64,000 nt of DNA from Thiobacillus sp. 65-29 (GTDB lineage Bacteria; Pseudomonadota; Gammaproteobacteria; Burkholderiales; Thiobacillaceae), in assembly GCA_001899775.1 (NCBI GenBank), contig MKWN01000043.1:1-64000 (forward strand), written 5' to 3'. Shown one piece after another: positions 2,260 to 59,357 of the stretch; the first letter of the stretch is position 1, and each line of letters begins with the position of its first letter. A program made the translations under genes and the position numbers. The notes beneath the pieces were generated by a model that was given only the letters and a program-made list of their open reading frames with translations, was not told the DNA's origin and searched no databases.

Positions 2260-2472
2260 CCTAAAAACCGCAATTGGACGCATCCGATGGTGCGTCGGAT
2301 CGCGTGGCTGCCGCGAAGCAACGACGCCGCAGGCCGGGAGGCAGGTGCGTGAGCCGGCGTGCCAGCGGGTGCGTAGCGGACTCACCTGACAGGTGAAGGC
2401 AAACAAAGGCGGACTTTTCAGTATTCACGCGGCGTTGGTGAGCGTATCAAGCGGTCAACTGCGGTTTTTAGG
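2260..2472 (+). mobile_element. MITE-like element, copy 1 (internally deleted)
   Basis: Starts CCTAAAAACCGCAATTGG and ends CAACTGCGGTTTTTAGG, an inverted terminal repeat of about 18 bp with one mismatch. The interior matches copies 2 (17867-18157) and 3 (58955-59245), but about 78 bp of the middle is missing: 213 bp here against 291 bp. The left flank ATCAG and right flank ATTAT do not match, so no target duplication remains. It directly abuts direct repeat A. No transposase frame is present, so mobilisation in trans is inferred. Confidence 0.8.
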
Positions 2473-17836: not shown

Positions 17837-17866
17837 GCCACCCGCACCGGGGGAATCCGGCATAAT

Positions 17867-18157
17867 CCTAGAAACCGCAGTTGGACGCGCCCGATGGTGC
17901 GTCGGATCGCGTGGCTGCCGCGAAGCAACGACGCCGCAGGCCGGGGCCTGCAAGGAGGCGCGAGAGCGGAGTCGTTGCCGCGCAAGCGGCTTTACGAATC
18001 CGGCCTGCCCCTTGCGGGTGCAAAGGCAGGCGCGTGAGCCGGCGTGCCAGCGGGTGCGTAGCGGACTCACCTGGCAGGTGAAGGCAAACGGAGGCGCACT
18101 TTTCAGTATTCATACGGCCTTGGTGAGCGTATCAAGCGGTCAACTGCGGTTTTTAGG
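17867..18157 (+). mobile_element. MITE-like element, copy 2 (full length, 291 bp)
   Basis: Left end CCTAGAAACCGCAGTTGG and right end CAACTGCGGTTTTTAGG are inverted repeats. The pentamer ATAAT lies on both sides (17862-17866 and 18158-18162), as expected of a 5-bp target duplication. Same length and orientation-reversed relative to copy 3. An 81-codon frame on the minus strand (17868-18113) recurs in copy 3 but differs by non-silent changes, so I do not call it a gene. The insertion lies 11 bp before dacB. Confidence 0.85.
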
Positions 18158-18168
18158 ATAATCAGGCC

Positions 18169-19584
18169 ATGCCTGTTGCTGCCGCCTTCCGCCTGCTTGC
18201 CGGTCTCCTGCTCGTTGCGCTCGCGCTGGGGGCGCGTGGCGCCGAACTGCCGGTGCCGGTCGTCGCGGCCCTCGCGGAAGCCGGCATTCCGCTCAGCCGC
18301 GTGGCCGTGGTGGTGCAGCCGCTCGGCACGTCGGAGGCGCTGCTCAGCCACAACGCCGACGCAGCGCTGAACCCCGCTTCGACGATGAAGCTGGTGACGA
18401 GCTTCGCCGCACTCGACCTGCTTGGCCCGAGCTACACCTGGACCACGACGCTGTGGGCGGCGGGTCCGCTTGCCGGCGGCGTGCTCGATGGCGATCTCGT
18501 CATCAAGGGGCGCGGCGATCCGACGCTGACGCTCGAGCGCATGTGGCTGCTGCAGCGCGAATTGCGGGCGCGCGGAGTGCAGCACATTCGTGGCGGACTG
18601 GTGCTCGACACTGCGTATTTCAGTGTCCCGGAGCACGATCCCGCGGCCTTCGACGGCGAGCCCTTCGCGCCCTACAACGCCGCCCCCGGCGCGCTGGTGG
18701 CCAATTTCAACGCCGTCGCGCTGCGCGTGAAGCCGCAGGACGACGCCGTATTGATCGTCCCCGATCTCGTGCTGCCGGGCGTGACGCTGGTGTCGCGCGT
18801 GACGCTCGCCGAGGCGGTTGAATGCAACGGCGGGCAGGGCGCGCTCGTGCCGGCCTTCCCGGACGAGGCGCGACGCACCCTGGAAATCACCGGACGCTAT
18901 CCGCGCGACTGCGGCGAGCGCGCGCTCGCGTTCAATCTGTTCGAGCCGGCCGCGACTTTCGATTTCATCTTCCGCGGCCTGTGGGATGAGGCCGGCGGCA
19001 CGCTCGCCGGCGCCACGCGCGGCGGGACGGCGCCGGATGCTACGCCGCTGCTGGTGTTCGAGTCCGAACCGCTGGCGCAGGCGCTGACACGCCTCAACAA
19101 GTATTCGAGCAACATCATGGCGCGCAATCTGTTCCTGACGCTGGGTGCGGAAGCCTTCGGTGCGCCGGGCACGCCGGACAAGGGCGCGCGCGCGGTGCGC
19201 GACAGCCTGGCGCGATACGGCATATCGACGCAGAAGCTGGTGCTCGAAAACGGCGCCGGCCTGTCACGCATCGAGCGCGTCAGCGCGCAGGCGCTCACCG
19301 CCCTCCTGCACGCCGCGCAGCGCACGCCCTGGGCCGCCGAGTTTGCGGCATCCTTGCCGCTCGCGGCCCAGGACGGCACGCTGAAGCGCCGCTTTGCCGG
19401 CAGTGCGGTGGCCGGGCGCGCACACCTGAAGACCGGCACGCTGCGTGATGTCAGCGCGCTCGCGGGTTACGTGCATACGCTGCGTGGCGATAGCGTGAGC
19501 GTCGTCATGCTGGTCAACCATCCGCGCGCACGCGCCAGCGAGGCGGCGCAGCGTGCCTTGCTGGAGTGGGTGGTGGCGCAGTGA
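18169..19584 (+). CDS. dacB: D-alanyl-D-alanine carboxypeptidase/endopeptidase (PBP4)
   Basis: 471-residue periplasmic class C penicillin-binding protein that trims and cleaves peptidoglycan cross-bridges. A signal peptide (about 1-25) ends near GARGAEL. The three active-site motifs are present: SxxK in NPASTMKLVTS (about 66), SxN in NKYSSNIMARNLFL (about 310) and KTG in HLKTGTLRDVSALAGY (about 425). Between the first two lies the long insertion of the PBP4 family. The start ATG follows the right end of MITE copy 2 by 11 bp, so the element's end is part of the gene's leader. A small membrane-protein gene overlaps the stop. Confidence 0.95.
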   Translation: MPVAAAFRLLAGLLLVALALGARGAELPVPVVAALAEAGIPLSRVAVVVQPLGTSEALLSHNADAALNPASTMKLVTSFAALDLLGPSYTWTTTLWAAGPLAGGVLDGDLVIKGRGDPTLTLERMWLLQRELRARGVQHIRGGLVLDTAYFSVPEHDPAAFDGEPFAPYNAAPGALVANFNAVALRVKPQDDAVLIVPDLVLPGVTLVSRVTLAEAVECNGGQGALVPAFPDEARRTLEITGRYPRDCGERALAFNLFEPAATFDFIFRGLWDEAGGTLAGATRGGTAPDATPLLVFESEPLAQALTRLNKYSSNIMARNLFLTLGAEAFGAPGTPDKGARAVRDSLARYGISTQKLVLENGAGLSRIERVSAQALTALLHAAQRTPWAAEFAASLPLAAQDGTLKRRFAGSAVAGRAHLKTGTLRDVSALAGYVHTLRGDSVSVVMLVNHPRARASEAAQRALLEWVVAQ

Positions 19585-26715: not shown

Positions 26716-27020
26716 TGGAAAAGCGGACCAGGCAACCGCTGCCGCGCAAGTGGGAGAGGAAAGTCCGGGCTCCACAGAGCAGGATGCCGGTTAACGACCG
26801 GACGCCGCGAGGCGAGGAACAGGGCCACAGAGACGAGTAAGCCCGGCGCGAGCCGGGTGGACGTGAAACGCGGTAACCTCCATCCGGAGCAACACCAAAT
26901 AGGCAGACGATGACGCGGCTCGCCGAGTCTGCGGGTAGGTGGCTTGAGCCGGCCAGCAATGGCCGGCCTAGAGGAATGGTTGCCCACGACAGAACCCGGC
27001 TTATCGGCCCGCTTTTCCAC
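26716..27020 (+). ncRNA. rnpB: RNase P RNA (type A)
   Basis: Catalytic RNA of RNase P, which matures tRNA 5' ends. The 5' strand GGAAAAGCGG (26717) pairs with the 3' strand CCGCTTTTCC (27009-27018) as P1. The universally conserved GAGGAAAGTCCGGGCTCC begins at 26756, and ACAGAACCCGGCTTATCGG lies near the 3' end. GGTAACCTCC and CAAATAGGCAGACGATGACG sit in the middle. A consensus TATAAT (26704-26709) lies just upstream and overlaps the pyrC stop; no good -35 was seen. Ends are estimated to within a few bases. Confidence 0.96.
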
Positions 27021-58937: not shown

Positions 58938-58954
58938 GTCGCGTGGCGAATGAT

Positions 58955-59245
58955 CCTAAATACCGCAGTTGACCGCTTGATACATTCACCAACGCCGCAT
59001 GAATACTGAAAAGTCCGCCTTCGTTTGCCTTCACCTGTCAGGTGAGTCCGCTACGCACCCGCTGGCACGCCGGCTCACGCGCCTGCCTTTGCACCCGCAA
59101 GGGGCAGGCCGGATTCGTAAAGCCGCTTACGCGGCAACGACTCCGCTCTCGCGCCTCCTTGCAGGCCCCGGCCTGCGGCGTCGTTGCTTCGCGGCAGCCA
59201 CGCGATCCGACGCACCATCGGGCGCGTCCAACTGCGGTTTATAGG
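58955..59245 (-). mobile_element. MITE-like element, copy 3 (full length, 291 bp, inverted)
   Basis: Starts CCTAAATACCGCAGTTGAC and ends CAACTGCGGTTTATAGG. ATGAT flanks both sides (58950-58954 and 59246-59250), an apparent 5-bp target duplication. Same 291 bp as copy 2 but opposite orientation. It fills most of the 420-bp gap between 58938 and 59357; the remaining 107 bp after it is the leader of the next gene. Confidence 0.85.
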
Positions 59246-59357
59246 ATGATTCCGCAACAAGAGGTGTCGTGCGGAGAACGGTCGATGTGTGCGTCGCCGC
59301 ATTCGTCCCGGGGCCGGGTCGGCGGCTTGTTCAATGCCCCCGCACGAGGAGCATGCG

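Follow-up and report, generated by a model that had tools for sequence, protein, structure and literature searches.

The repeats in a 64,000-nucleotide stretch of Thiobacillus sp. 65-29 (contig MKWN01000043.1; hereafter the window) are, taken as a whole, best explained as MITEs that are probably moved in trans by a divergent IS1380-like transposase and whose interior holds a hairpin under selection on one strand, likely an RNA module shared with other MITEs. The first reading of the sequence had overlooked that a conserved, folded module occupies the interior.

A search with the terminal 17-mer located the three repeats at the places given for them in an earlier note (Table 1), with 6 occurrences in the window at up to 3 mismatches compared to a mean of 0.01 in shuffled sequences. 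The ends are inverted, as the note had it, but the motif that it gave runs to 17 letters rather than about 18. Copies 2 and 3 are 96.6% identical, lie on opposite strands and, in agreement with the note, both measure 291 bp between matching pentamers (ATAAT/ATAAT and ATGAT/ATGAT, respectively); a target duplication is thus present in two of the three window copies, the flanks of copy 1 being unlike (ATCAG/ATTAT). All three are short (213–291 bp) and multicopy, have terminal inverted repeats and, as had been claimed, lack a transposase, the features by which MITEs are recognised. The core inside the ends was captured in a covariance model that leaves the ends out (model R1).

Table 1. Features of the MITEs in the window and of a second MITE type in the same genome (positions refer to the window unless a contig, C, is named).
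Feature	Position	Strand	Remarks
MITE copy 1, 213-bp deletion form	2260..2472	+	ends 2260-2276 and 2456-2472; without matching target duplication
Hairpin core of copy 1, apical tip absent	2277..2399	+	81.5 bits against model R1
Target duplication ATAAT, left of copy 2	17862..17866	.	
MITE copy 2, 291 bp	17867..18157	+	ends 17867-17883 and 18141-18157
Hairpin core of copy 2	17884..18084	+	81.5 bits against model R1
57 extra bp of the 291-bp form, within the hairpin tip	17964..18020	+	element positions 98-154
Target duplication ATAAT, right of copy 2	18158..18162	.	the ATAAT of the conserved CGGCATAAT before dacB
dacB (D-Ala-D-Ala carboxypeptidase, Peptidase_S13; PBP4)	18169..19584	+	starts 6 bp past the duplication
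Target duplication ATGAT, left of copy 3	58950..58954	.	
MITE copy 3, 291 bp	58955..59245	- (folded strand = minus)	ends 58955-58971 and 59229-59245
Hairpin core of copy 3	59028..59228	-	84.8 bits against model R1
Target duplication ATGAT, right of copy 3	59246..59250	.	
Second MITE type of the window's genome	C38:42546-42704, C38:55009-55167, C58:39729-39887, C31:32500-32658		ends TGGTCTGCTTCCGAAATA, CTAG flanks, same tip

The suggestion of a sizeable genomic family held when the whole genome (2.9 Mb, 61 contigs) was searched, which yielded 55 ends at up to 2 mismatches compared to 1 for the reversed pattern. Among 24 own-genome elements that we aligned, 12 measure 233–234 bp and four measure 291 bp, these being the four with the 57 extra bp, so that the length of 291 bp put forward for the family is right for copies 2 and 3 but is a secondary size in the genome, where 233–234 bp is commoner. 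A look-alike of the 57 bp occurs by itself, outside MITEs and between genes, in another genome of the genus (L049 1501-1557). With copy 2 as query (E<=0.001), 27 of 41 genomes gave a match, namely the own genome, all 24 others of the genus and 2 of 16 from elsewhere. At C24:5823-5861 of the window's genome (L186), two copies lie head to tail, the younger one having entered precisely at the ATAAT duplication of the older.

Evidence for movement came from the genome of a congener (G013), in which the site of copy 2 is uninterrupted and reads GGCATAAT followed by the start of dacB. Clean empty sites were not found for the other two: at copy 3 the G013 match ends just short of the junction and genome G004 lacks the element but differs by many indels, and for copy 1 no match spanned both flanks. 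Together with the inverted ends, the site-variable 5-bp duplications and a same-ended insertion sequence that likewise has a 5-bp duplication (see below), the empty site of copy 2 sustains the view of a non-autonomous transposon family; what the earlier note had named as speaking against transposition, a lack of empty sites and invariant flanking pentamers, was not seen, since an empty site exists and the pentamers vary. Both the assignment to MITEs and the connection with an IS1380-like transposase have all the firmness that sequence can give.

The possible parent for which the note had suggested looking, an insertion sequence sharing the ends and having a 5-bp duplication, was found in locus L098 (445-2078); an exact scan for the 17-mer over named bacterial and archaeal genomes returned at least 117 stretches in all. 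The element measures 1634 bp, is flanked by ATGAT/ATGAT and contains a 522-codon open frame, whose predicted product scored 63.1 bits against Pfam DDE_Tnp_1_4 (PF13701), above the cut-off of 34.7, and 130.5 bits against NCBIfam NF033539 (IS1380), below the cut-off of 180, for which reason we call it IS1380-like rather than file it as a member of the family. Judged by eye, LYRDRADAENNFDELK in this protein (P0001) appears to fit the Y-R-E-K pattern, which we take to be the DDE signature of IS1380-family transposases. Similar ends also accompany related transposases at several loci in the order, and on a Polaromonas plasmid one such transposase with a matching right end is followed, 357 bp on, by a 234-bp MITE. 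The transposase was not matched in the window's own genome; among 56 genomes of the genus 2 had a match, one of them very weak. Across a sample of 399 genomes of the order, the transposase was found in 13 (E<=1e-20) and the core in 83, belonging to 44 of 158 genera (model R1, E<=1e-4), and comparison of the two match lists showed both together in only 2 genomes; most carriers thus seem to have lost the enzyme or to use one too distant for the search. An IS1380-type remnant in the window's genome (C60:21285-21413; L173) was rejected as the parent, there being no like ends nearby; it is a fragment similar to the C-terminus of another IS1380 transposase and, with 25.7 bits, falls below the Pfam cut-off. 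Elsewhere (genome G124, C1:2750521-2753617; L206, L210), two copies of the IS1380-like transposase gene are direct neighbours, and ATAAA marks their junction.

To describe the target, 107 elements having both ends and enough flank were kept from 137 listed core matches, after removal of 15 without an end pair, 9 duplicates, 4 with a short left flank and 2 with a short right flank; the list of 137 leaves out partial matches at contig ends (L082, L099, L123, L154 and L160 1-65) and L039 (63 bp of flank). Identical pentamers flank 57 of the 107, and among 121 end pairs, which include some alternative pairings of one end, repeats of 5 bp were counted 61 times and those of 3, 4, 6, 7 and 8 bp 0, 2, 0, 0 and 0 times. 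The target consensus is nTnAn, 99 of the 107 left flanks having T as second and A as fourth base. In 97 of the 107 elements the duplication is a stop codon on one strand, and in 40 of these 97 this codon terminates an open frame 100 or more codons long, compared to 1284 of 12890 background sites (10%); the test had earlier been made with 98 hand-chosen model matches and was repeated with the 137. A home-made gene caller was tried for the insertion context and proved rough, placing 20 of 94 insertions inside called frames, including the plainly intergenic copy 2, and the exact stop-codon test was relied on instead. Within the window itself, no copy occupies the stop codon of a long gene.

In the mechanism that we propose, the divergent IS1380-like DDE transposase would recognise the 17-bp ends and move the MITEs in trans, and insertion at nTnAn would generate the 5-bp duplication. 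As nTnAn is matched by TGA, by TAA and by the end of TATAAT, insertions would often fall on stop codons, as the counts above show statistically, and sometimes on -10 boxes, as a single site suggests, and in either case the duplication would leave the stop codon or the -10 site intact. The single site is that of copy 2, which the earlier note had described as supplying part of the dacB leader; the element is indeed close to dacB, but ‘part’ is loose, as 11 bp separate its end, which falls within the conserved CGGCATAAT, from the dacB ATG. By its spacing, the ATAAT of this motif may be the -10 box of a leaderless gene, in which case the insertion of copy 2 would replace the native -35 region. 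A consensus promoter scan of this one region, around copy 2, revealed neither an outward nor an inner promoter.

The folded strand is antisense to the stop-hit gene in 30 of the 40 cases and sense in 10 (p 0.002), which does not agree with a role of the hairpin in the mRNA of that gene. Since the stop-type duplications are themselves skewed, 68 to 29, the bias may come from the transposase rather than from selection, and we regard an intrinsic preference of the enzyme for nTYAn in the direction of the element, as opposed to selection on transcripts, as about evenly balanced. Besides the overall skew, the same direction prevails where no long open frame is involved (31 versus 18, p 0.085; 94-element set, 100-codon threshold), while the stronger skew (25 to 5) at the stops of open frames with 150 codons or more argues the other way.

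Beyond the paired ends, the elements contain a separate stem of about 36 bp that adjoins the left end, positions 18–53 pairing with 102–137. The fold of copy 2 has a z of -6.7, and that of a 234-bp copy a z of -8.0 on one strand versus -4.3 on the other. When all register positions were scored in 42 aligned elements, 1085 cells were Watson-Crick, 250 G-U, 7 A-C and 167 other, and departures from majority Watson-Crick pairs comprised 54 G-U versus 4 A-C. In 24 diverse cores (set A1), 93.5% of cells are paired compared to 76.6% after shuffling, and both sides have changed in 37 of 46 pairs, compared to 18.6 in shuffles and at most 21 in slid structures. Similar values were obtained for 32 further cores absent from A1 (set A4; 95.6% versus 77.7% paired, both-side changes in 33 of 46 pairs versus 21.9), a set that was aligned with the model and hence is biased towards it. 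G-U again exceeded A-C in another set (123:12) and in A4 (139:15), where A-C departures are nevertheless present (15 versus 68 G-U), as well as in the tip within other MITEs (32:3). Elements from other genera, dissimilar in sequence, follow the same structural plan. In the copies of the window the tip is damaged, by the 57-bp insertion or by a deletion. There is thus a strong case that a fold of one strand is conserved; the excess of G-U over A-C points to a single strand acting likely as RNA rather than DNA, which is not proven because single-stranded DNA likewise tolerates G-T pairs. The interior would accordingly be more than a leftover, its hairpin beside the left end and its conserved purine-rich tip appearing to be under selection for a one-strand fold.

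At gathering scores, Rfam recognised only RNase P RNA in the window and nothing in the repeats (the RNase P hit, Bacterial RNase P class A RNA, lies at 26720-27019 on the plus strand with 236.6 bits), and five loci (L115, L108, L172, L101 and L003) gave no match at E<=1. The literature searched, which covers subscription journals only in small part, yielded no description of these ends or of the tip. The last 98 nt of 234-bp elements, which lead from the hairpin to the right end, are similar across genera too. We rejected a coding peptide there, as mismatches by codon position (10412, 12819 and 11846) show no third-position excess; one frame is free of stops in 39 of 64 sequences, compared to 28% of shuffles.

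In a sample of the phylum, R1 matched in 13 of 398 genomes. Of 58 loci that were checked, 40 have an IS1380-type left end exactly at the core, and in 38 of those 40 the right end follows at a total length of 232–238 bp, with identical flanks in 22 of the 38. The remaining 18 are weaker matches with the same tip (GCAAGGCGCGASGASGC, a small hairpin, AAGSASGAGCAACGC) and other ends: strong inverted repeats lie outside the match in 10 of the 18 compared to 0 of 176 control windows, but not at L316, L317, L318 and L326, and the loci of genome G111 score low in this test, the match overlapping their ends. Conversely, short elements with the same 17-bp ends and different interiors occur in Methylobacter and relatives (L089, L054, L102, L166) and in a MAG titled Lentisphaera araneosa (L061, L064, L107), none of them matched by R1 at E<=1e-4.

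A second model restricted to the tip (R2; 74 positions, seeded with both kinds of MITE) matched in 61 of 398 genomes of the phylum, in 36 of 213 genera, largely within MITEs that have other ends. Among 30 R2 loci, some of which had seeded the model, 26 have flanking inverted repeats compared to 1 of 320 control windows. The ends, read from the sequence, are of several kinds: GGGCCTGTT... with TA, in elements of about 262–270 bp that in 11 loci hold a second, oppositely oriented copy; AGAACCTATYYCAGTAG with TNA, in genome G111; GGGCGTGT... with CTAG; and TGGTCTGCTTCCGAAATA with CTAG. The last kind is also found in the window's genome (8 ends, forming the 4 elements of Table 1), where two kinds of MITE consequently have the tip in common. 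Although the sharing rests on two covariance models, end reading by eye and shifted-window controls, the occurrence of the tip in MITEs with other ends leads us to take it as a shared module. More specifically, it could well be, with chances slightly short of even, a mobile structured-RNA module that transposon families in many genera of Pseudomonadota have passed to one another as the interior of MITEs, whose ends are of four kinds or more (CCTARAAACC..., GGGCCTGTT..., AGAACCTATYYCAGTAG and TGGTCTGCTTCCGAAATA), and that is retained through the action of the folded RNA together with a host factor. As to what the hairpin does, the role that we find likeliest, though as a guess and with less than even chances, is that of a structure within a transcript that a host factor recognises or processes, thereby limiting the harm of insertion or favouring retention.

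Other readings of these data must be weighed. The repeats might not be mobile at all but represent, say, an ancient satellite or a repeat that binds a protein and spread through recombination, and that an intact transposase was not found in the window's genome would agree with this; the 5-bp duplications, insertion sequences bearing the same ends and above all the empty site of copy 2, which already contradicts it, leave such a reading scarcely tenable. That they are ordinary MITEs whose interior is inherited by descent, the shared tip being a functionless by-product of recombination between MITEs, is improbable: MITEs often form long hairpins (PMC2229807) and the Thiobacillus copies are related by descent, but both-side changes exceed shuffled and slid controls in two sets (A1 and A4), the total length is 232–238 bp in 38 of 40 loci, and pairs are kept over many genera, which neutral decay would not be expected to achieve.

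A more serious, if still unlikely, competitor is that the fold is kept as single-stranded or cruciform DNA, for instance to join the ends in replication-coupled transposition. It would account for the constant position of the core beside the left end at fixed spacing, for the MITE type with two oppositely oriented copies and for a folded strand mostly antisense to neighbouring genes, whereas the ratios of G-U to A-C (250:7 and 139:15) are above expectation if both DNA strands mattered alike, and the association of the tip with several types of ends leaves no single-transposase specificity. RNA, for which covariation and the ratio of G-U to A-C argue, is hence the form in which we consider the fold most likely to be kept.

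The relation to the IS1380 family (ISEcp1, ISPme1) is seen in the L098 transposase, through PF13701 and, below its cut-off, the NCBIfam IS1380 model, and extends to the elements themselves: ends starting with CCT, an AT-rich target and a 5-bp duplication are usual for this family and are likewise found here. ISSsu5-type IS1380 transposases on plasmids show about 25% identity to that of L098. ISEcp1 differs in having an outward promoter (PMC9330008), whereas the MITE has no transposase and no outward promoter was found near copy 2. More distantly, the T-A core of nTnAn recalls the TTAA of piggyBac, for which IS1380 serves as outgroup in PMC10813416. Correia/NEMIS, ERIC, RUP and BOX are, like the present elements, small non-autonomous repeats with stable transcript folds, and NEMIS RNA is a proposed target of RNase III (PMC2229807, PMC3049150). 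In those families the fold comes largely from the paired ends, and they are described from one or a few genera; the present elements differ in having a further hairpin inside, with covariation across many genera and a tip that is found again beside other ends. Another comparison is MITEPsy1 of Pseudomonas syringae, a bacterial MITE with a related insertion sequence, demonstrated transposition and a CTAG or YTAA target (PMC3189936), and the second MITE type of the window's genome is likewise flanked by CTAG; MITEPsy1 differs by its length of 100 nt and its other ends. REP, REPIN and BIME are also repeated intergenic hairpins, and one MITE type described here has two hairpins that point in opposite directions, but unlike them our elements have DDE-type inverted ends and target duplications.

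Bacterial MITEs are usually viewed as deletion relics of one insertion sequence, whereas the interior of these appears to be under strong structural constraint on a single strand. The surprising part is that MITEs share this tip although their ends are unlike, and that one genome harbours two such kinds. The nTnAn target would account for elements that sit at stop codons without breaking genes, and the structured motif, which has no Rfam match, can be modelled anew, as the covariance models are rebuildable from the listed alignments. The family may thus offer a testable case in which the cargo of a MITE, beyond its ends alone, decides which MITEs spread.
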